This document shows positions 2,235-61,882 of a stretch of DNA of 64,000 bases, piece after piece; positions within the stretch are counted from its first letter, which is position 1; every line of letters starts with the position of its first letter. The notes under the pieces are model-generated. The model worked only from the letters and a program-made list of their open reading frames with translations. It did not search any database and had not been told where the DNA came from. Where the stretch lies: contig KV419410.1 of the NCBI GenBank assembly GCA_001630475.1, positions 310,001-374,000 on the forward strand, written 5' to 3'. Made by a program: the position numbers and the translations under genes. Source of the DNA: Sistotremastrum niveocremeum HHB9708 (taxonomy: Eukaryota > Basidiomycota > Agaricomycetes > Sistotremastrales > Sistotremastraceae).

Positions 2235-4860
2235 ATGGATGGCGGAATCATTATGCTGGTACGCAGTCATAACGTCCATTTCATTAATAGGATCTAACCG
2301 AAGCTCTATCGCAGGGCGTCGACGGCCCACCTTCATCCATGGTACGATAGTCTTTTAGCATTTTGCAAATGCTTCCTAACAGCTTCCTTAGGCCTTCAAG
2401 AGAGCCGTGTTGAAATACCCGCCTCGAGAGTTCTCGCTCGACGTACTTCCTCCCGCTAAGCATGGTCAGTACTTTTGCGTGGCACAGCCCTAGAATTTTG
2501 ACGTCGACATGTGGCCTATAGGGAGCGCTTACTCTTATGGTCTGAGAGTCTCTCCGATCAAATCAGATACCGCGACTATCAATTCAGGTCATTCATGGTC
2601 CCACGACTACGAGATCTGGCGCCGATGGGAAGACTGCCTGAATTTCCAGGAAATTTTGGAGCAGGAATACGCAGAGATGTCGAAAGAAAAACGTAGGGGT
2701 CTTGCGAGCGGCAAGGGCATCAAGAAAGGTGGCGTGTACCAGAGATCAGACTTCGCCTCGTCTTGGGACTCTCTGCCACCTGGCCCAGATCCCAGTTCAG
2801 TCGCCAGAGACATCCATGCTTACCTGCCTCGTCTTTCCAAGAAGGGATCCATTTTTCGCATCAACCAAGCTACCATCGCACAGAGAGGCAAAGAGTTCGA
2901 AGCGCTCATCAAGGCTCTATGGGATTCAGATCCGCCCACTCTTGTCAAAGAATTACGTCAATCATCGACCGTCCGCGATTTCTTTGGCTTTTGGAGGAGA
3001 GACTCTGATCGACTGAAGAGATCTGGGATTGCTGCACCGACCAGTCCCAGTCTTTACAGCACGGTCTCGGTATCTGCTTTCTCCCTGGTCCCGACGAGTC
3101 CCACTTCTGCCGATGGAGTAGCTCCCATGCTCCTCAAGCTGAAGTCGGACGACAACATGTCCATCACTTCTCGTGACTCCAACAACACCATCACGCCCAA
3201 CCCACTGGCAACGCTGTCCCCATCGGGATCCTCATTCTCCTACTCCAGAAAGCGAGAATCTGATGACAGTACACTCGAGAGTGGTTCTTTGCCATTGACA
3301 CCCAATTCCCCCGTCGAAGGGTTCGGCGGTTCTGACCCATCACTCAAGTTCGTTCTCGACTCATCAGACATCGAATTCGAAGAACCCGCCGAACTCACTT
3401 CCACCTTTACTCATCGTTCTGCTGACTTTTTGCGCTATCAACATCAGCAAAGAGCGGCCACTAATCCTTCGGCAGATGCTCAGCACGGCCTCCCTTCACC
3501 GGTCGCTGCTTCCGCTCCTCGGCCCCCAAGACGCGGAGCCCCGCCAGCGCTAACCGTGAATAATCGGTCTGTCCGTATCCTCCCTGCGTCGGGCTTGGCC
3601 AGTCCAGTCGAGGAAGATGAGGCAATTTACCTCCCTCATTTTGACTGGCCTACTCCCCCGGCGTCTCTTGGTACACCACCGCCTCCCGGTCCACCGCGTT
3701 CAGTGCTCCTTGCCAACTCCAGGAGATCGCCGCTCAGTGCAACCACATTCGACTCTTCGCCACAGAGTGCAGTCTTCTCAGAAGCTGAGACGGACATCTC
3801 GAGTGCCACATCGCTTCAGGCCTCGTCTGCTTCCAGCTTGTACGAGCGCAAACGTGCCAAGTCGCTGGTAAATCCTCGATCAAGCAACCGTTCAGATGGA
3901 CCCTCTCGAAAAGCGAGCGTGCAGTTCGAGAAAGAGCCTGTACCGAGCATTCGGGACTCCATCGCCAGCTTGACATCCATCTACACTCAGTCGTCTGCGC
4001 AAGCTGGTCCTCCTCGACATGTGCGCGGTGGAAGCGGTGATCTGAGACGTAGCTTGTCTTCGGGATCCAGGAGACACGCAGAGAGCATTCATGGAAGAAC
4101 TTACGATCCCTCAATGGCTGAAGAAGAGAGTCTGCATGATAGTCTGGATTTCATCGACAGCTATCTGGAAGACGGTATGTTGCCACTTCAACTCACCACT
4201 TCTGCAGAAGCTCATACGTATCCACGAGTAGAATCCGCTCAACTATTCGACTCTTTGAATCTTCATGAAGGCAACTGGGACGCTCGACGGCGAACCATCT
4301 TGCATGATGAGCCAGCTCGTCCTGAATCCATGATTGGAGGCCGCGATTCCATCAACTTCTCTTTGCCATCACCACATCGATATTCCAGCTTTGGCTCATT
4401 CCGCGGCTCTATGGGACCTCTCCCGCAATCTCCAAGTAGCATCGTCTCAGAACATAGCGCCGAATCCCCGTTGGAAGCCACAAATCTATCACCGACTTTC
4501 GTGGTCAAGGCGATTTTCCAAGACTCGATCATTGTCTTGAAGGTTGATCGCACGATCTCGCTACATGACCTGCGACATCGTATCCACGAGAAATTCAGCA
4601 AGCAGGAAGACATTCCACTTTCGGAAACTCTTGTCCTTGGATACGTATCTCCCTCGCCAGCCTCTCCAGAAAAACGCAGCTCGGGCGGTCGTCCGCGCTC
4701 AAATTCCGACGCTGCTTCCTTCATCTCCTCTGTCTCGACGCTTGACATAGGCCGAGTCGAATTCGTGACGGAAGAAGAGCAGTGGCAAAATATCAAAGCT
4801 ACCGGAGGGGCTAAGATGACCATTCGCATTTTCGATTCTCTGTCCGATATTGCGGGCTGA
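2235..4860 (+). CDS. PB1-like domain protein with long serine-rich middle
   Basis: Joined exons 2235-2258, 2315-2341, 2392-2464 and 2522-4860 give 820 residues. The first ATG is followed by two very small exons of 24 and 27 bp, and the frame is kept across three introns of about 50-57 bp. The N-terminal 150 residues (for example WRRWEDCLNFQEILEQEYAE) look folded. Residues about 200-690 are Ser/Pro-rich and low in complexity, typical of phosphorylated linkers. The last 120 residues (FVVKAIFQDSIIVLKVDRTI, then LHDLRHRIHEKF and a final WQNIKATGGAKMTIRIFD) have the beta-grasp pattern of a PB1 domain. PB1 domains pair with other PB1 proteins in polarity and NADPH-oxidase signalling. I infer a scaffold role; no catalytic motif is visible. 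Confidence 0.75.
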
Positions 4861-5211: not shown

Positions 5212-7190
5212 TCAAGTGGGAACAGTTAAAAGCCCATGAGTATTCGCCGGCGGGGGCCCATGACCCCATGGAACATACTTGTGGGTCCAATCCGGCATAA
5301 CCATATGGCGTTGCGATCTCACAGAAGTGCTAGGATCGGTCTGCGAAGATTCGCCAATATCTGTCTCAGTATTCGCATTGGCTTCTGCCTGATCCCACTT
5401 CTCGCGCGACATATCTTGTCCACCGATCTTTAGCGACCTGAAGAAGATCATCAATTTCCATCAGGATGCATCAAAGCAGAAAGACGATTACCCTGTCAGT
5501 GAGCCGCCAACCCATGGGAGAGCAGCGGGGGAGTAAGCAGGCGCGCGACCAGCATTATGAGCGGTCGTCGCTGATGCGGGGGCGCCGTGATTGGGATCAT
5601 TCACGATCGAGAGAACACTTTTCATGGGACGTAGAGTGGCGAAGGGATCATAGAATCGTTTCGAAGGACTAGTACCCGGCGGTCTTGTAGGCTTCTCCAG
5701 GGCTAACAACAGTTGCTTTCGTAGACGGGTTATGAAGCCAGGGAGCATCGCTGTTCCCCCGACGATGAGGATTGATGAGGCCAACTGACCCCGAAGGTCA
5801 ATCGGAACCTGATTTTTCAATCGCCGTTAGAGAAGAAAACCTTGAACCTTTTCATTTGATGACTCACCTTCAACAGTGAATGCAATATAACTTCCGCGAT
5901 GCTCAGTTCATCAATATCGCCACCCTCGAAAAAGAGCTCTGCTGCGCGCTCCCTAATCCATCCAGGGATAATCAGTGTTCCCATACCAGGAACAGACTGT
6001 GGTTGTGCCATAGCAGCAGGTGATAATGCAGACACTGTCATTTTCACGTCCGTTGCTGTTGACCGAGGTTTATATATTTCTTCTATCACATTTGAATATG
6101 CTTCGGCAGCGGATTGTCTGGAGGTCGCCTCTGGTTGGCTTGGGGTTACGTTGGATGTTCTGGACATCGTGACCGGCGTCGTAGATTCTTGTTCTGCGTC
6201 TGACATTATAGAATCACTGTCTGGGACCATCATAGTCGCCGTTGATTCGGCATTCGATGGAGGTTCTTGGGTCAAATCAATGGGATTACTCGCAAAACAG
6301 CATCTCGTCTTGATTTCTTCCACGACGGCGTCTGTGAGGAGTTCCTCCGGTACTCGAGTTATTCTGTCCGCCGTTGGAATGCTGACAGAACTCCCGAGGT
6401 TGGGTAAAGGCGGAATGTATGACGCGAACTGTAGCAGAAGCGCTTTGATGTGCGCATTGAATCTCGCGCCTGCTAGAGGAGTAGTCTTGAGATGGGTGTA
6501 TAGGGGACGGGATGAGAAGATCTGAGAGACAGTTAGTTGGGTGGCAAGAGCATCTTTGCGAAGGGAGTATGCACCGGTAAAGCTGTGCTTTCAAGATGGC
6601 CGCAGTCAAGTACAAGACCAGTAACACGACCGACAGCCAAGAGAGATAGTAGAGAACTTGATGCGAAAGAAATCGAGGGAGCTTGTAAGTTTGTGAAAAG
6701 AGCTCGGGCTAGAGTTTCCTTGACGCGCAAGGGTAGCAGGGGGTGCTCAACAATGATGACTTTCCTGGCTCTTGGATCTGCCATTAGTGAGCTGCGCATA
6801 TATGTTAAGATTCCATTAACTCAGCCAATACGAGGTGCACCATCACCTATGGAAGACTCGACGAAGGTGGTCTTTGAGCCGCAGATACAGCACCGTATCC
6901 TCTTCGCCGCGTCCAGCCACCTCGTCCAAACCAGTCAGCGACCACAGAGGTCTCTTGTCGAGGCCATCCACGAAAAACACGTCGCGGGGCCTGCCTTCGC
7001 CGCTGAAACCAACTTTCCAAATGTGTGAGCCAGGGTCAATCACGATACGGTCTTCCGTGCCATAAAGGGAATGACGACGTGTTGTAGTATAGTGAGGAGA
7101 GCTAATGACCCCAGTTGGTCGTGTTGATGCTGGAGTAGTTGGGTCGAATGAAGCTTGTCGACGAGGAGTGCTAGGAAATTCGACAGACAT
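5212..7190 (-). CDS. ARP10: Actin-related protein 10, dynactin pointed-end subunit
   Basis: Exon 1 (7190 to about 6849) ends in LKDHLRRVFH and contains the actin-like opening IVIDPGSHIWKVGFSGEGRP. The next exon carries KVIIVEHPLLP and VGRVTGLVLDCGH, the second phosphate-binding segment of the actin fold. A later exon (about 6520-5870) has a low-complexity Ser/Thr insert, then PGWIRERAAELFFEGGD. The next contains SSILIVGGTAMLPGFITRL, matching the actin ILxGG...PGF segment. This order fits fungal Arp10, which caps the Arp1 filament of dynactin, the dynein cofactor in the cytoplasm. The 3' end is uncertain: I stop at the TGA at 5212, but a further short exon downstream is possible. The start is only 45 bp from the divergent ASA1 start, so the two probably share a promoter. 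Confidence 0.8.
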
Positions 7191-24110: not shown

Positions 24111-25959
24111 ATGGCTCTGCCCGTCACCTTTAGTCCGCCTCTCTTCCTCCAACGACAAGCATGGCTCATCCGCACAATCAGACAAGAATCTCCTTCTTCT
24201 GTGATTCCACCCAAGCCTCGATGGCACCGTGCTAAACTCGCTCTAGTTACTCGACATAGGCTGTGGCGAAGGCGCCCTCCTAGCCTGTCTTTCTCTCCCC
24301 TCATCAACTCTCCCTTACACTCTCCCTCCATACCTCGGTCCCTTACAACCCTTTGACGAAATTCATTTGAAGAGAATTGCAGGACTCGATCTATCAGCTG
24401 ATGATCTCGCGAGCGCCATCACCGAAACCGCGCCTTCCTCGCCTCCTGATGAATCTCATACGCACGAATTCTCGCTCGGTCCAATGCGTTGGGAAGAGAC
24501 AGAAGTGAATATCTACCACGGGGATTTCCAAGATCCAAATCCCTCATTCATATACTCCCCTCAAAACAAAACAGGTTACGAATGTATAGTCTCCACCGAA
24601 GTGTACGCCTCTCCCATTTTTCCCATCTCAGTACTCAAGTCGCGTAGAATCGAACATCTAGAGCCTGATACATTACCCCTCTTCGCCCCCATCCTCCTAG
24701 GACACTACCGCCCCCGTCTCCTCCTCCTCACAACCCCAAACTACACATACAATCAACGATTCACCCCTCCCCACCTCCCATCCCCCAGCGGAATACCCGA
24801 TCCTACACATCGGACGGATAGAATGTTCAGACATCCTGATCATAAATTCGAGTGGACAGAGGAGGAATGGAGGGATTGGTGTGTGGGGGCTGCTGAGAGG
24901 TGGGGATACGAAGTTGAGATTGGAGGAGTTGGGAAGTGTGTTGAGGTTGATGAATGGGGACGCGATGAGAGTATTGGATACGCGAGTCAAACAGCTCTAT
25001 TCCGACTCACCTCCCCTGCACCTTCCTATTCCCCACCCACAAGAAAAGGAAAAGAACACGTCCTCCTCGCGCATCACATCCACACCCCCCATCCATCATC
25101 CCGAAATCCCCACCCAGCGGAGGAGATATTAGAAGGTGTAAGGAGACAGATGAAGCTTTGGAATGTTGCGGAGATGACGGTGCAGGAGGTGTGGGCGCAG
25201 CATGAGATTAGTATTCTTTGTGGAGGGGATGTCGTTGCGCTGTTGGATGCTATACACAATTCTTCCAATTCTTCCAATTCCTGCTCCTCCTCTTCCGATC
25301 CTTCTGGTCCTTCTGGTCCTTCTGGTTCATCTCAACCTTCCAGTGCCGAGCTGACCACCTCAGTAACCGAAACGGTCAGCGAGACCAGAGGTGGGAACGG
25401 CCACGGCGATGCAAACGGCGATGCAGACGGTACCGACCACGGGATAAAGGAAGAGGAAGCTGAATGGGAGATCGACACATCAAACAAGAAGAAGGAAGAC
25501 ACGATCTGGGAAATCGTGCTGAGGAATAAGAAGTATGTTCCTGAAGAGAGGACGTCTGTATGGACTGATGCCGGTTCTTCTTCTTTTGGGTTGCCGAGGG
25601 ATGGGGAGGGGTATGACGAAGACGAAGATGAGGAAGAGGAAGAACGGGAGGAACGGGAGGAACGGGAGTGGACACGTCCACTCGATCCGGAGTTTTCAGC
25701 AGCCGAACATGGATTCGTAACTGAAACTGACGGCGCCGACCACACTAGTGAAGAGAACGGGTGGGGCTGGGGCACCAATCCTTCCAGTGGATGGACAACA
25801 GAGCCGACACCAACAGAGCCGACGCCGACACCATCTAGAACGTCGCCCGACATCGACCTTGAGCGAACCGACGAGAGCACTGGTGTTTCATGGAGCGGCG
25901 TGGCAGGTAAACAAGAAGATGTATCCACATCCCCGTCCACGTCCACGGCGTGGAGTTAG
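24111..25959 (+). CDS. HEN1-type small-RNA 2'-O-methyltransferase with long acidic tail
   Basis: Exons 24111-24200, 24247-24602 and 24648-25959 give 585 residues. The start MALPVTFSPPLFLQRQAWL has the F-x-P-P entry of HEN1. The SAM motif LLDIGCGEGALLACL is restored by the first intron. The metal-binding motif E-V-I-E-H (residues 148-152) is rebuilt across the second intron, and FRHPDHKFEW (about 209-218) supplies the next histidine. Together these are the E-E-H-H set that marks HEN1/HENMT1, which methylates the 3'-terminal ribose of small RNAs. Residues about 290-585 are unlike the family: Ser/Pro/Gly repeats, then acidic runs (EDEDEEEEEREEREERE) and a Thr/Pro-rich end. That tail is probably disordered. 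The enzyme call is strong; its RNA substrate in this fungus is unknown. Confidence 0.85.
25258..25332 (+). repeat. Coding minisatellite in the HEN1 tail
   Basis: Two short tandem runs sit side by side: ttcttccaa repeated to encode NSSNSSNS, then ccttctggt repeated to encode PSGPSGPSG. A further run near 25646-25669 repeats cgggaggaa to encode EREEREERE. Such runs expand and contract easily, so tail length may vary between strains. Confidence 0.7.
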
Positions 25960-51491: not shown

Positions 51492-52295
51492 TCAGCGCTC
51501 AGCAGTAGTCGGAGCTTCTGATTCCAATTTGGCTTTTGCATCTTGGGCTTCTTTTTCTTTGCGTCGTTCCTTTTCTTTCTTACAGGGACCCTTATGTCGA
51601 GCCCAATCTTTCTTCTGCAATCGGATTAGATGAGGTGACAAAACTTCCAGACATTTCGGTTACCTGGCAATCCGGTGAGCAATAGAACACGCAAGAGCAC
51701 ACAGAGCATGATTTGAGAGCCGACAGAAGGAACAATTGACCTGGACACTAAGAAGAGTCGACATAAATGCTGAGACGTCTATTGAATCACATACCTTATC
51801 GTTCCCACACGCAATGTGACCTTTAGACTTGCCTCTCATTCTCATCTCTTTAGCCTCCTCAAATCTTCCTTGAGCCTCTCGAAGTTGCGCCATGTTCTCT
51901 CTGGTAACAGCCGCGTCGAATCTTGGGCCCTCACCAAGTCCACCAAAAGTCTTGTCGTCTCGGACACGGAGAGCCTTCGATAACGCTTCTTCAGCGCCCG
52001 AAAGATCTTGCAACGATAAAAGTGACTCTCCAAGACCGTTGAATGATATAGCTGCCTGCACCGAAGTCTCTGGGAACGTTTTCAATTTCAAGGCCAGAGC
52101 TTGACGATGAAGGGCCGCTGCTGTTCTATAGTCTCCACTCATGGAAGCTTGTGTAGCACGATTCGAGATTTCAATCGCGCCCATGTTGGAATTGTACGAA
52201 TCCTGTACAGCTTCTGCTGACATCGAGGAGATATCGAAGACGGTGCCATGCATGGCAGATTTCGAGAGAAGTTTGTTCTGCTTTTTGGAGGGCAT
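51492..52295 (-). CDS. TPR plus MYND-like zinc-finger protein, copy 1
   Basis: Exons 52295-51795, 51747-51664 and 51614-51492 give 235 residues. After MPSKKQNKLLSKSAMHG comes a tetratricopeptide region: SGDYRTAAALHRQALALKLK, AAISFNGLGESLLSLQDLSG, AEEALSKALRVRDD and AQLREAQGRFEEAKEMRMRG. The finger is CGNDKC, then CSVCSCVFYCSPDCQ and KKDWARHKGPC. The end is a Lys/Glu-rich helix. The second half matches MYND (CxxC, YCxxxC, HxxxC), but the first pair is C-x4-C instead of C-x2-C. One intron splits the finger just before the second Cys, the other follows CQ. TPR and MYND parts both bind peptides, so an adaptor role is likely; no SET or other catalytic domain is present. Confidence 0.82.
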
Positions 52296-52806
52296 AGTGA
52301 TCGTAGTGGGAGAGCCGTTATTCTCTGATCAGATCTGTCAGTCAAGGGCCCTCTTATGCACGATGCCATGTAAGACTCGCCAGACACTCTGAAGTCAATA
52401 GGAGAATGAGAGCAAGGACAGAAAGTCACCTGTTCAACTCCGCGAAACTGGCGTGTCTACATCGACTCGGATTGACTCATCTACGTAGCCGAGCCTCATG
52501 TCATCTCATAGTTCAGGACGGAACTTTGTAGAAATTCAGAGAAATATGCGGAATAGAAGGCGACCGTGAATGTCAGAACGTGCAGGGAAACAGCCATTTA
52601 CTTGATGGATCGGTCACAAAGACGGTATGTCCGTACGTTGGCCTGCATTTTGCTTCGTCCAGTAATTGAAACCAGGTCAAGATAATATTTCAGGGTTTCA
52701 GCGACATAAGGACAAGAAGCAATACCGAATCAACTGTAGGGATAAACGAGAATTGATCGTGACCGCGGCGAATACCATGACATTGACAAATCGAAGGCTC
52801 GTACTA
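52296..52806. other. Spacer between TPR-MYND copies 1 and 2
   Basis: 511 bp with no gene seen. It should contain the promoter of copy 1 and the 3' end of copy 2. Confidence 0.4.
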
Positions 52807-53654
52807 CTAATCAAGCACCAAAGAGATTGAAGCTGGACCTTCCAGCACCCTGCCTTCATCGGGAGGGATATGAAGGTGATCTGAGTGAATTTGGCTCTGT
52901 TGCGCTTCTCTTCGCCTTATTTCCGCTCTGCAGGGCCCTTTATGTCTGGGCCAATCCTTGGTCTGCAACATAAAAGAACATAAGAGAGGAGTAGCAGTTT
53001 GGGACGAGGGCATATACCTGACACACAGCAGAGCAGTAAAATACGCTCGAACATCCAGAGCATGATTTGAGGCCCGACAGAAGAAACATCCTGCCCGCTG
53101 GCGCACACTGAAAGCAGAGAGCTCAGATTTAGTATCCAATTTAGGCATAGACGATTGGATTATACACAAACCTGCATATTGGGACAACATATCTGGCCTC
53201 TGGTCTTGCCTCTCTTTCGCAATTCGACAGCATCTGCGAATCTCCCTTGAGCCTCCCGCACTTGTGCCATATTTTCTCTGGCTACAGCGGCATCGAATCT
53301 TGGACCTTGACCCAGTCCACCATATTCCTCGTAGTCGTAAACCCGAAGGGCTTTCGACAAAACCTCTTCGGCGGCTAAGAATTCGCCCAATGCAATCAAA
53401 GACTCTCCGAGTCCGTTGAATGTCAGTGCCGCTTGAACCGACGTTTCGGGATATGCTTTCAACTTCAAAGCAAGAGCCTGACGATGAAGAGAAACAGCCG
53501 TCTGATGATCACTTAGCCTGACTGCTTGAAATGCACGGTTGGAGAACTCGACGGCGCGAGTATTAGCCTGCATCAGAGCCATGATCCCTTCGGAAGACAT
53601 CGTCGGGGTCACTGGGTTGGCATGCATCGATGATCTTGAAAATCTGAGAGGCAT
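52807..53654 (-). CDS. TPR plus MYND-like zinc-finger protein, copy 2
   Basis: Start MPLRFSRSSMHANPVTPTM at 53654, with TPR helices SDHQTAVSLHRQALALKLKA, AALTFNGLGESLIALGEFLA, AEEVLSKALRVYDYEEYGG and AQVREAQGRFADAVELRKRG. The finger reads CPNMQC, then a two-residue longer linker, CSGCSSVFYCSAVCQ and TKDWPRHKGPC. Exon junctions fall at the same places as in copy 1 (introns about 65 and 55 bp). About 242 residues, ending in ISLVLD. The C-terminal tail (HSDHLHIPPDEGRVLEGP) differs from the Lys/Glu-rich tails of the other copies. The N-terminus has also lost the MPSKK start, so this is the most divergent member. Confidence 0.8.
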
Positions 53655-54269
53655 TGCGAGAATCTCAGGGGACAGAGCAAACGAGGCGTCCTGACTCCTG
53701 GCCCTGGTCCTTTATTCAGAATCTCTGTATCAATTATGTGGCAACGCCACAAATTATGAGAAGAACTCACCTGAGACAACGAGTCTGCATAAAGAGAGGA
53801 AGCGTATGACGCGTGTGCATTTCGTACAATGCATAACAAGGAAACGCGAGAATGCCGAGAACAAGGCAGACGTGGGAGCCATGCGTCTCGTGAAGCGCAT
53901 ATGCTTGAAAAATTGAAGGTTCATTGTCTCGGCTGCTACAGCGCCTGTAGGCAGTAGCCAATGCTGAGGATGGTAATCGTTGTTCGAAAGATAAGAAAGT
54001 TGACAATGAGCGGAGCGCAACGCGATGTCTTAGTCCATTTTGAGGACGCGTTGTTTAGCTGCAGGCGCTGATTCTTGGTGACGGATGTGCCACTGAACCT
54101 GTCAGGCGTTGGCTCCGGTCAACATTGCTTGCACAATGAATCGCTGTATGATAGGTCCAGACTCTGGAAGTTATTGACCTTGAGCTGAGATATAGCTTAC
54201 AAACGGTGAATAGCCTACGCTCAACGTACAATTAACAACAAGACAAGTCCGTTGGGAAGGGCATTACAA
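53655..54269. other. Spacer between TPR-MYND copies 2 and 3
   Basis: 615 bp with no gene recognised. An 88-codon minus-strand frame (53754-54020) shows no family features. Confidence 0.4.
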
Positions 54270-55097
54270 TTATGTCGCGTTCTCCTCGGTTTCCGGCGCA
54301 ATTTGATCTTCGTTCTCTTCTTTTTGCTCTTTTTCTTGAATTTCCGCAGCTTGCCTTCGTTCTTTTTCCCCATTGCAGGGACCCCTATGTCGTCGCCAGT
54401 CTTGTTTCTAAAGTGAAATGTATGAGAGACTGTTCAAGGAATAATAATCACCGCAAACTTCGGTACCTGGCATGCGGCAGAACAGTAGAATACGGAAGAG
54501 CACACTGAACTTGAGACCAGACAGCAGGAACAATTGGTTTGGACACTGAACGAGTTCGAGGTGAGTTTCAGAGCGCCATTAGAGAAAGATCATACATACC
54601 TTGTGGTTGGCACAACAGATCTGACCCTTTGATTGTCCCCTCAAGCGCAGTTCCTTAGCGTCTGCGAATCTACCCTGTGCTTCTCGAACTTGGGCCAGAT
54701 TTTCCCTCATTACAGCCGCGTCAAGCCTTGGACCTTCACCGAGACCACCGTGTATCTTGTCGTCACGAACGTAGAGGGCCTTCAGGAAGGCTTCTTCAGC
54801 ACCTGAGATATCTCCAAGTCGGAGGAGAGCTTCCCCAATCCCGTTATAACTCATCGACGCTTGGATGGAGGTCTCTGGGAAGGATTTCAACTTCAATGCA
54901 AGAGCTTCGCGATGCAACGTGACTGCCGTTTGGTAATCTCCTCTCTGAGCCGCTTGGTTGGCGCGATTCGCAACGGTAACCGCATTTGTATTCGCGTTGA
55001 TCAAATTACTGATTTCCAAAGAGGACATGGTAGCTGGGTCTAGAACGTTGGCATGCATCGCAGAATATGATATCTTCGTAGACTTTTGAGAGGACAT
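54270..55097 (-). pseudogene. TPR plus MYND-like protein, copy 3, frameshifted in the finger
   Basis: From ATG 55097 the frame reads MSSQKSTKISYSAMHAN and TPR blocks RGDYQTAVTLHREALALKLK, MSYNGIGEALLRLGDISGAE and AQVREAQGRFADAKELRLRG, then CANHKC and NQLFLLSGLK. Here, near 54508-54512, five bases are missing relative to the other copies, which removes the third finger Cys and shifts the frame. Downstream bases still spell VFYCSAACQ in the old frame, and the last exon still reads KQDWRRHRGPCNGEKERR to a TAA at 54270. Intron positions match the other copies. The TPR half could still be made with a different, finger-less tail (LKFSVLFRILLFC). I regard the finger as lost; whether the gene is dead or makes a TPR-only protein is open. 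Confidence 0.75.
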
Positions 55098-56520
55098 GAC
55101 GCGGATGGGAGATGATGCGATGGTCTGAGAGCTTCTTAGCTCACTGCACATAGTATATTCCAGTCACTCACCTGATATCCGATTCAACGAGAGCAAGAGG
55201 TAAAGTCAGGACAGCTGGGAGCTCGGCAGAGTATAATTTATATTGCAGAGCTTCATTCAATGACCTGTAGGGCCGGTCCTTTCAATACTTTGTACGTGTA
55301 TAGCTCCGTTCGAGAGTGATTGAACCGCCGAGAAATGGTCACCATTGAGGTTGCTGTTCCGCGTAGTATGCGCTACGATGTTCACTAAGCGGTTTCAATG
55401 TGTGCACGAACGAAACAATGCATCGATAGAATGACTATCACGACACGAAGCCACCTCATATGGAATGAAGTAGTTCAATCGGAGTGTTGACGAAATAAGC
55501 GCCCTGCGGCAGCTTCTTCTGCGGCCCCTCGGGGGGTGACGCAGACCCGGTCGTTTCCATATGGGGACCCATGGCCGTCTAATACACCACCACCACCACC
55601 ACCGATGCTTTCGCGAAATAAGCGTACGTGCACTAGTTAGTACTTCAACTCGATGCTTCTTGAGGGATTGGAGGCAGATACTACACGAGAATATATTTAG
55701 TGCTTACATACCCAATTAACACAGAAGGGAACAAAATAAAATTAGTTGGCAGCCTCAGCAAAAGAGAGACTCGGGTTGGTCCAGAGGCTACCACCTGGCC
55801 CTCATCTCCCCCAACAGTAGTGTACAGGGCAAGCGAGAACATGGGACGCACCTCCATTACAGAGTAAGGTGGGACTCAGGACTCGGGGTAAGCATCCCCC
55901 TTATCCGAATCAACCACCCTGCGCCTTATATCACATATCTCAAACCCGCAGCTAATACACCGCTCCGTTACATACAGGGTATGTGAGTGGACATGGGTAA
56001 ACTGAAAATTTGATTGTGAAAAGAGGCGGGTGGTTTGTTGACTGTTCAAGAGGCTTTTGTATCAGCAGCGCACCAGAGGAAGATAAATCAATGTCGGTGG
56101 CTCGAAGAAGGGGCACCGCTTTCGGCTGACAGTAGCCGATACGGCCGCTTGTCCTCTTTCTCTATGTTCGCTCCAATATCAACGGTAGGAGTGCTCTAGG
56201 AGCGAAAAACAGTTCACTTTGAATGATAGCAACCGTCAGAGGTCGTGGATAGAGTGATATCGTTTCGTCGTTCGTTTTGCTACTGATAGTCGAAGGTTGA
56301 GCGAATAGAGGAGATGGGCTTTGACTTTGAAGGACGGAACGAAATGCTGGCATGGGACGACAATAGTTAGATTTGACATCAATAAGGCGGCATAAGAAGA
56401 TTAATTATACACAGAGTCTTCAACCTTCCAGTAAATGATAGATTTCTTTTGTTCTGATGTTTTCTCTTCGAGCTTCCCTGGTGTCTTCGCTTCAATTTTC
56501 CCTTGAATAATGTCGGCAGG
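55098..56520. other. Spacer between TPR-MYND copies 3 and 4
   Basis: The longest spacer in the array (1.4 kb). It contains a CAC trinucleotide run at 55585-55603. I searched by eye for a further TPR or finger fragment and saw none, and no other gene. Confidence 0.4.
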
Positions 56521-57319
56521 TTAATTGGGATTAGCCGCCTTTTCTTCTTTTTCTTCTTCCACCGTTTGTGCCTTGCGACGTGCCCGTTCTGCTTTGCAGA
56601 GGTCCTTGTGTCTGTCCCAGTCCTTAAGCTGTGCAAATGAGGCTGAGAGAAGGTGGACAATTTATCAAAGAACTCCGTACCTGACAATCTGGAGAGCAAT
56701 AGAATACGCAGCTGCATTTGGAACATGATTTAAGTTCTGACAAGAGAAACATCTGGCCCGGGCACTGAGCAAAGATTCTCGTCAGCATCTCAATGAAACC
56801 AGGAAAAGCGTAGCCAAGTACGTTGTAGTTGCCGCAACAGACTTGTCCCTTAGATTTGCCTCTCAGCCGGATGTCTTTAGCTTCTTCGAATCTCCCTTGC
56901 GCTTCTCGGAGTTGTGCCATGTTCTCTCTCGTAACAGCTGCATCGTACCGTGGGCCAGTGCCTAGCCCACCGAATGACTCGTCGTCGCGGACGCGTAGGG
57001 CCTTGGTCAAGTTATACTCAGCCCCTGGAATATCGCCAAGAAGGAGCAGCTTCTCCCCAAGGCCATTGAACGACAAAGCAGCCTGAATTGACGTTTCCGG
57101 AAACATCTTCAACTTTCCTTCCAGGGCTTGGCGATGTAAGTTTGCTGCAGTTTGATGGTCTCCTCTCTTGGCAGCCTCCACGGCAGCATTCGAGGCGTCG
57201 ATGGATCCCAGCTGGGTATCAACGAGCGCGAAGGATTGGGCGGGCGACATTGATGAGGAATCTATCACGCTGATGTGCACGCCTGACTTTGAAAATTGGT
57301 GTTGTTTCTTGGAGGGCAT
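56521..57319 (-). CDS. TPR plus MYND-like zinc-finger protein, copy 4
   Basis: Start MPSKKQHQFSKSGVHISVID at 57319. TPR blocks are RGDHQTAANLHRQALEGKLK, AALSFNGLGEKLLLLGDIPG and AQLREAQGRFEEAKDIRLRG. The finger is CGNYNC, CSKCSCVFYCSPDCQ and LKDWDRHKDLC, followed by a Lys/Glu tail (KAQTVEEEKEEKAANPN) and TAA at 56521. Introns are at the same two places as in copies 1-3. Shared MPSKKQ start, CPGQ linker and SPDCQ ending place it closest to copy 1. It is the most upstream copy and looks whole. The repeated one-way order suggests tandem duplication by unequal crossing-over; whether all are expressed cannot be seen. Confidence 0.82.
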
Positions 57320-59559: not shown

Positions 59560-61882
59560 ATGCAGAGCATCTCAGTGCTATGGAAGGCTCCTGTAATCAG
59601 TTCATCTAGGTGTATTCGTGGATTTGCCACCGTCTCACCTGGTCAACCTCGACAACCACAGACGTACATCGAAAAGGTGGTGCAAAAGTATGCGGTCGGG
59701 TTACCCGAGGGCAAGGTCGTCCGAGCAGGAGACTATGTGATGATTAGACCCGAGAATGTTATGACGCATGATAACACAGGGTAGTTATCTCGTCTGTGAG
59801 ACCCGGATTGTATTCATGGTTATTGTGCAGACCCGTCATCTCGAAGTACGACAAGACACATCACCCAAATGTTCTCATCTAATCTCTCGCAGGTTCAAAA
59901 GCATCGGTGCCACCCGGATCCTCAATCCCCAGCAACCTGTATTCACTCTAGACCACGATGTTCAGAACAGAACAGCTAAAAATCTCGCGAAATACGCTCA
60001 GATCGAAGCTTTCGCCCGAACACATTCCATCGATTTCTATCCTGCTGGTCGGGGCATTGGTCACCAAGTCTTGGTTGAAGAAGGCTACGCCTTTCCCAAT
60101 TGTCTGACGGTCGCGAGTGACAGTCATTCCAACATGTATGGAGGGGTTGGGTGTGTCGGTACGCCGATAGTGAGGACGGATGCGGCTGCGTTGTGGGCGA
60201 CTGGGAAGACTTGGTGGCAGGTTCCTCGCATGGTCAAAGTCGAATTCACCGGCCGATTAAAACCTGGCGTCACGGGGAAGGATGTTATCATTGCTTTATG
60301 CGGGTTCTTAAACCAGGACCAGGTGCTGAATGCAGCAATTGAATTCACCGGCGAGGGAGTCAAACATCTGGCGGTTGACGATCGACTCACGATTGCCAAT
60401 ATGACCACTGAGTGGGGTGCGCTTGCTGGCGTCTTCCCCGTCGACGGAGTTCTCCTGGATTGGTACGATGCTCTTTTGGCCCGAATCAGCGGCCAAACAT
60501 TCTCCACCGCGCCATCAGCTCCATTTACTTACGCCATTCCTCCACCTCCCGAACATCCTCGCATAAACCGCTCTCGACTTGACGTCCTCAGATCGCGAGC
60601 ATTGGCAGCAGACCCCGGCGCAGAATACTCGACCCACATCACTTTCTCATTGTCATCGTTATCACCCCACGTCTCCGGACCCAACAGTGTGAAGGTATCG
60701 ACGCCACTTGCCAAATTGGAGGAATCCAAGATCCCAATTCAGAAGGCATACCTTGTCAGCTGTACGAATTCTCGTGCCTCGGACATCGCTGCAGCAGCTG
60801 AGGCCATCAAGGGCAAGAGTGTTGCCCCTGGCGTCGAATTTTACATCTCAGCTGCGAGCTCAGTTGTTCAGCAAGATGCTGAGCGATCTGGTGATTGGGA
60901 TATCCTCATCGGTGCCGGAGCCATTCCTTTGACTCCGGGTTGTGGCCCATGCATCGGTCTTGGCACAGGTCTTCTGAAAGAAGGCGAGATTGGCATAAGC
61001 GCCACTAATAGGAATTATAAAGGCAGGATGGGACATCCGAATGCGAAAGCCTACCTCGCCAGTCCTGCGGTGGTGGCAGCCAGCGCTGTCAACGGATACA
61101 TCAGTGGACCTGCCTCATTAGAGGGCGAGTCTCTTCAGTCAGGCGTCCCTGAGTTCACCATCAAGGATACCCAATCCTCTCAGTCGACTTCTACCTCATC
61201 GAGCTCGAACGAACCTCTCTTTGCTGGATTCCCATCAACGTTCAGCGGGCCAATGTTGTTTGCTCCGCAAGACAATCTCAATACTGATGGGATTTATCCT
61301 GGGAAATATACTTACCAGGACGACATCACCCTGGAGCGTCAGGCTGAAGTCGTGATGGAGAACTACGATGTGACTTTCGCCAGCCGTGTAGCGTCTTTGG
61401 TCAAATCCTCATCGTCTTCCGGCGAATCAGCATCATCAACCAATGCTACTAAATCGGGTGTGATATTGGTGTCCGGGTACAATTTCGGCACAGGCTCCTC
61501 TCGCGAGCAGGCAGCGACTGCTCTGAAATCTGCAGGAGTTCCCCTCGTTATTGCGGGTTCATTCGGCGACATTTTCAAGCGCAATGCCATCAATAACGGA
61601 CTCGTCTGCATCGAATGCCCTGAACTGGTTGCCGATCTGACAGCAGAGTTCGCTGCGGATGGACAGAGAGCAGGAAAGACTATTTCTGGCGAGGCGACGG
61701 TGGATACGAGCAGGAATATTTCTATATCCATGACCAATGGAGAGGTGTTGGTTGCGGGAGCTGGTAAGGAGAAGAAGTATCAGGTACGACCTGTGGGTCC
61801 TAGCGTTCAAGAACTCTGGACCTGCGGCGGTTTGGAGGGTTTCGTATTGAAGTCGATCCGACAGGGCGAAGCCACCGTCTAA
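59560..61882 (+). CDS. LYS4: Mitochondrial homoaconitase
   Basis: Exons 59560-59780, 59831-59845 (15 bp) and 59893-61882 give 741 residues. A presequence ([20 protein letters not shown] then GFATVS) precedes [18 protein letters not shown]. Spliced [17 protein letters not shown] spans the tiny exon. The 4Fe-4S ligands appear in [40 protein letters not shown] and [17 protein letters not shown]. The swivel domain has [20 protein letters not shown]. It ends RQGEATV. Aconitase-fold with the LYS4-specific [20 protein letters not shown] and [10 protein letters not shown] blocks fits homoaconitate hydratase of the alpha-aminoadipate lysine pathway. A Ser/Thr insert ([12 protein letters not shown], about residue 510) separates the two parts. 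Confidence 0.93.

Follow-up and report, generated by a model that had tools for sequence, protein, structure and literature searches.

Proteins with a MYND zinc finger form a large, little-characterised set in mushroom-forming fungi. In one published comparison, the zf-MYND family is counted 41 times in the column "Agaricomycetes (7)" and 7, 11, 26, 3, 7, 4, 2, 2 and 1 times in nine other basidiomycetes (PMC4469406, Table 3). Moniliophthora perniciosa has 25 zf-MYND gene models (PMC2644716), and 50 zf-MYND proteins of Ganoderma lucidum are filed as transcription factors, 13 of them differentially expressed (PMC9386254). The present analysis concerns a local group of such genes in 64,000 nucleotides (nt) of Sistotremastrum niveocremeum HHB9708 (contig KV419410.1, positions 310,001 to 374,000), called here the window, whose own numbering is used throughout. 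On its minus strand, interval 51492-57319 is spanned exactly by four adjacent paralogous genes, g1 to g4, that code for TPR helices followed by a MYND finger. We describe the array, its gene models and domains, the set of finger ligands, a lesion in one copy and the constraint on the coding frame. We propose that the genes probably form an old tandem array of non-catalytic adaptor proteins, three of them intact and one with its finger lost or mis-assembled.

MYND has been found together with TPR before, in ZMYND12 and in the SMYD proteins. ZMYND12 and TbTAX-1 are axonemal (PMC10629824). The finger of ZMYND12 (PDB 8j07) lies near the N-terminus, at residues 26-56, whereas in the array TPR precedes MYND. 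In a fungus of the mushroom type, such proteins are unlikely to serve a flagellum. SMYD1-3 carry a MYND finger with the same spacing of Tyr, Gln and Trp as the array proteins, and a TPR-like C-terminal domain is described for SMYD3 (PMC4414169). They differ from the array in domain order and in their SET domain: at E<=0.5, the Pfam models found in g1, g2 and g4 are of TPR and MYND type only, with no SET, and g3 adds a sub-threshold MIT match. The expectation of the first-pass annotation that no catalytic domain is present thus agrees with the Pfam results.

Among fungal MYND proteins, Mub1 of yeast is needed for the association of Ubr2 with Dsn1, which suggests that it acts as an adaptor of Ubr2 (PMC3567142), and Fuz1 of U. 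maydis is, according to a review, required for the fungus to grow as filaments and to keep its cell wall intact; both are likened to the array by description. Sweep regions of Rhizoctonia solani contain three MYND genes that were placed in the MUB1-RAD6-UBR2 complex through their Gene Ontology term (PMC13113206), an assignment probably based on the MYND domain alone. By the Pfam cut-off, three of the four array copies carry the same finger (PF01753) as other fungal zf-MYND proteins. What sets the array apart from published Agaricomycete examples is a C-x4-C first cysteine pair and the TPR region, neither of which is mentioned in the consulted portions of PMC4469406 and PMC2644716. No paper on a fungal TPR-MYND family or on a C-x4-C MYND finger was recognised in the open-access literature, judged by titles and the beginnings of abstracts. 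A search joining MYND with C-x4-C listed no paper on that spacing, its only MYND paper (PMC12383448) being concerned with ZC4H2. An expanded family joining TPR and MYND had been regarded as unusual; the high Agaricomycete counts already in print and the precedents of ZMYND12 and SMYD speak against that, and the array seems to be an ordinary case of a known gene type multiplied locally.

Gene models were built by comparison of the paralogs, with splicing as predicted. Each gene consists of three exons: exon 1 (161-167 codons) codes for the TPR region and exons 2 and 3 for the MYND finger and tail. Gene g1 (51492..52295, 235 amino acids (aa)) has exons 51795-52295, 51664-51747 and 51492-51614; g2 (52807..53654, 242 aa) has exons 53172-53654, 53018-53107 and 52807-52962; g4 (56521..57319, 229 aa) has exons 56822-57319, 56681-56764 and 56521-56628. 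Paralog comparison, Pfam matches and zinc ligands back all three models. The broken copy, g3 (54270..55097), has an open exon 1 at 54600-55097, exon 2 with the lesion at 54467-54545 and exon 3 at 54270-54407. Pairwise identity of the four, in local alignments, is 54-68%, and no fifth copy was found within the window by tblastn with the four products (E<=1). All eight introns are of GT-AG type and 47-64 nt long, and introns as short as this suit a basidiomycete. Intron 1 stands immediately ahead of the codon for the second finger Cys and intron 2 immediately past the Cys-Gln of the third pair in every copy. Both are in phase 0 in g1, g2 and g4. The broken copy keeps phase 0 at intron 1 and, as the gene reads, not at intron 2, since the lesion leaves its exon 2 with 79 nt (84 nt in g1 and g4, 90 nt in g2). 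Two claims made earlier, that four neighbouring genes on one strand share a layout and that their introns interrupt the finger at identical places, are therefore borne out by the models. A third, that all tails are charged, applies to g1, g3 (in the frame of its paralogs) and g4, with 62%, 50% and 54% of K, R, D and E, and not to g2, with 30%. A TCAG-GTGAGT-like site (GTGCGT in g4) is present within 330 nt upstream of the starts of g2, g3 and g4, perhaps marking a shared intron of the 5' untranslated region; it is not clear in g1.

In g1, g2 and g4 the finger has the C4-C2HC order of seven Cys and one His, which g3 lacks. The first pair is C-x4-C, more precisely C-x-N-x2-C (CGNDKC in g1, CPNMQC in g2, CGNYNC in g4), and is followed by CxxC, YC-x3-C and H-x3-C; none of the three intact copies has the usual C-x2-C. 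The distance from the second Cys to CxxC is 12 residues in both g1 and g4; in g2, where the second and third Cys stand two residues further apart, it is 14. All three score above the curated zf-MYND cut-off of 22.7 bits (g1 35.0, g2 44.8, g4 32.5), and g3 as read gives no match. The earlier statements that C-x4-C and a standard second half are kept in all four copies hold, accordingly, for three: in g3 the finger reads out of frame, and its second half is lost by the frameshift. With full proteins as queries, the zf-MYND match starts at profile positions 6, 7 and 6 in g1, g2 and g4, beyond the first pair. With the finger alone, the match of g1 begins at position 4, on the second Cys, and those of g2 and g4 at position 6. 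At least in g1, then, the first Cys alone is displaced, the second remaining in register.

Another frame of exon 2 offers a conventional-looking C-x2-C, seen by eye in all four copies. We compared g1, g2 and g4 across the final 78 nt of exon 2 in the C-x4-C frame: their three pairs, which are not independent, together differ 14 times at codon position 1, 12 times at position 2 and 41 times at position 3. The excess at third positions favours the C-x4-C frame, so that the alternative first pair was rejected and the C-x2-C readable in the other frame is a coincidence. The substitution pattern indicates that selection acts on the C-x4-C frame and that the spacing seen in the three copies is real.

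The same spacing was found elsewhere. A survey of IMG/VR viral contigs for MYND fingers by DNA pattern gave 24 distinct loci (L002-L025), 20 of which were dropped by eye because the frame was short, the motif contained a stop or the first Cys pair was lacking. The remaining four (L002, L004, L005 and L006; L004 and L005 on the same contig) are recognisable MYND proteins and all pass the Pfam cut-off. L004, L005 and L006 have C-x2-C, and their zf-MYND match starts at profile position 1. L002, a 212-codon frame on contig IMGVR_UViG_3300017773_004847 (match 5730-5807, minus strand), has the first pair CQNINC, again C-x-N-x2-C, and continues like the array with CxxC, YC-x3-CQ, W and H-x3-C. It is otherwise unrelated to the array; no TPR was seen in it, though none was looked for, and searching the viral contigs for its relatives gave L002 alone. 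Since L002 reaches 28.6 bits without C-x2-C, the curated cut-off does not demand that spacing. C-x-N-x2-C is thus not unique to the array, the count being one in four from a small sample of a different kind of genome. First pairs of the form C-x-N-x2-C are frequent in fungal MYND proteins. The first-pass annotation had taken this to be probably a real variant finger; the spacing is real in three copies, but the idea of a notable variant is weak, because the ordinary zf-MYND model accepts all three, g1 displaces only the first Cys and an unrelated protein has the same spacing. C-x4-C looks like a tolerated variant of the known finger. Its main lesson is that two additional residues are tolerated in the first MYND loop, and such fingers would escape a search pattern that requires C-x2-C.

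The TPR region is recognised in all four copies, with TPR_12 (PF13424) scores of 39.4 (g1), 41.7 (g2), 46.0 (g3) and 35.1 bits (g4) against a curated cut-off of 30.1. A structure model of exon 1 alone, from an alignment of the four sequences, reached a mean predicted local distance difference test score (pLDDT) of 65.1 and a predicted template modelling score (pTM) of 0.56. It contains five helices of at least 4 residues, arranged as two pairs and one long helix; it is helical over residues 27-157, with a separate short helix turn at 22-24. As the best TPR_12 stretch covers residues 45-112 of g1, the earlier estimate of about 160 TPR residues was an overcount. Kinesin light chains and bacterial BKLC make up the seven top-ranking fold matches of this model; the matches are weak, the best having E 1.4e-2, with none at or below 1e-3 and TM-scores by query of 0.39-0.42. 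By sequence, the nearest solved structures to the TPR region are KLC1 and amyloid protein-binding protein 2. Searching genome_contigs with the array alignment gave one Roseobacter stretch, 31% identical over the TPR part; zf-MYND was found neither in the Roseobacter genome (0/1) nor in the control genomes (0/14), which makes the comparison uninformative. No relatives of the array alignment were found in viral contigs.

The nearest solved structures to the finger by sequence are those of SMYD2, CBFA2T1 (ETO) and DEAF1. Tyr70, Gln76 and Trp80 of SMYD3 have been proposed as contacts of PxLxP peptides, and the residue between the third and fourth Cys has been linked to specificity (PMC6837996). 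In g4, Y188, Q194 and W198 are spaced alike (6 and 4), and the three intact copies do not differ at these residues; the residue between the third and fourth Cys is V in g1, G in g2 and K in g4. For exon 1, nonsynonymous divergence (dN) by NG86 is 0.28-0.38 over the six pairs, and synonymous divergence (dS) comes to 4.9 for g1-g2, the other five pairs exceeding the range of the method; YN00 gives dS of 1.8 and 2.1, from two of the six pairs. For exons 2 and 3 together, dN is 0.27-0.44 in three pairs and dS 1.9 for g2-g4, being out of range for two. By these estimates the genes duplicated long ago and their proteins have been conserved. The shared Tyr/Gln/Trp spacing and the kinesin-light-chain-like folds fit an adaptor that bridges two proteins, its copies perhaps differing in the partner they bind, and Mub1 offers a yeast precedent of a MYND protein suggested to be an adaptor. 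In such a protein the N-terminal helices, resembling those of kinesin light chains, would bind one partner, and the MYND finger at the C-terminus, with two zinc ions in its usual C4-C2HC set, would bind a short proline-rich, PxLxP-like motif in another, so that the protein would bridge the two. The three conserved copies would differ at the specificity-linked position, and g3 would have lost its finger by a small deletion or carry an assembly error. Zinc binding, peptide binding, bridging and the splicing as modelled are what we infer. Three points weigh against this proposal: the adaptor role would stand by analogy; the TPR model is of low confidence, its fold matches failing E<=1e-3; and saturated dS makes the ratios imprecise, the YN00 values coming from two exon 1 pairs only. 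If the proposal is true, the array offers a small, tractable sample of the fungal MYND set in which a specificity-linked residue differs between copies.

The same domains could instead make nuclear transcriptional co-regulators with a role in fruit-body development, the MYND finger recruiting a corepressor or chromatin factor and TPR holding a transcription factor. Ten of the 13 regulated zf-MYND genes of G. lucidum are indeed expressed highest in primordia or the fruiting body (PMC9386254), and the fingers of ETO, DEAF1 and BS69 bind PPPLI or PxLxP motifs, that of ETO in the corepressor SMRT (PMC6837996). Yet Pfam shows no DNA-binding domain beyond the finger in g1-g4, and the transcription-factor label in PMC9386254 seems to follow the domain name; we consider this explanation unlikely. 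Far less credible still is an array of adaptors in which splicing would act as a switch of the MYND finger and the paralogs would diversify it. It would draw on intron 1 of g4 (56765..56821, minus strand, 57 nt), which lies between the first and second finger Cys, is a multiple of three and has no in-frame stop, so that its retention would add 19 residues there; a whole finger would still need the removal of intron 2. In the other copies intron 1 is either not a multiple of three (g1, 47 nt and open) or carries an in-frame stop (g2 and g3). The remaining alternatives turn on the state of g3. Compared with its paralogs, exon 2 of g3 has a 5-nt deletion that removes one zinc-Cys codon of CxxC and shifts the frame. 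With the shared splice sites, CxxC, YC-x3-C and H-x3-C are lost, and the product stops, finger-less, at 199 aa. Exon 3 is open to its end in the frame of the paralogs only, and third positions account for 6/9, 7/10 and 6/11 of the differences from g1, g2 and g4 after the lesion. As these differences are mostly at third positions, the lesion is either young or an assembly error. An error of sequencing or assembly, with all four copies in truth intact, would accord with this being the sole lesion seen in g3, with the open exon 3 and with the third-position excess after the lesion; the window, however, holds no N, and loss of 5 nt outside a homopolymer is not the commonest sequencing error, so that we doubt it. 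A decaying array, in which surplus copies have no important role and g3 shows the path, would accord with the lesion and with tails that differ among copies, but three copies retain every ligand and exon 2 keeps its excess of third-position differences, which makes decay rather improbable. An adaptor array with three intact members is the reading that we retain. It preserves from the first-pass annotation the tandem TPR-MYND family, the lack of a catalytic domain in Pfam and C-x4-C in three copies, and drops the conservation of that spacing in all four.

Alternative splicing of g3 that would give a full finger was rejected: none of the 15 single GT/GC-AG joins that keep the later part of the finger in frame restores the C4-C2HC pattern. 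In the join that leaves exon 1 entire, with a 91-nt intron at 54505-54595, one member of the second pair is missing. Two of the 15 use GC donors, lose 16 and 42 codons of exon 1 and read exon 2 in another frame; they contain seven Cys and one His by count, and not as the required pairs. An acceptor-like 9-mer, GTTCAGTGT, occurs twice on the minus strand of g3, at 54543-54551, at the intron 1 acceptor, and at 54502-54510, right behind the deletion, and is absent from g1, g2 and g4.

Elsewhere in the window, plus-strand open frames at 2494-4857 (788 codons) and 24247-25956 (570 codons) have no Pfam match at E<=0.01, and a frame of the aconitase family lies on the plus strand at 59765-61879.

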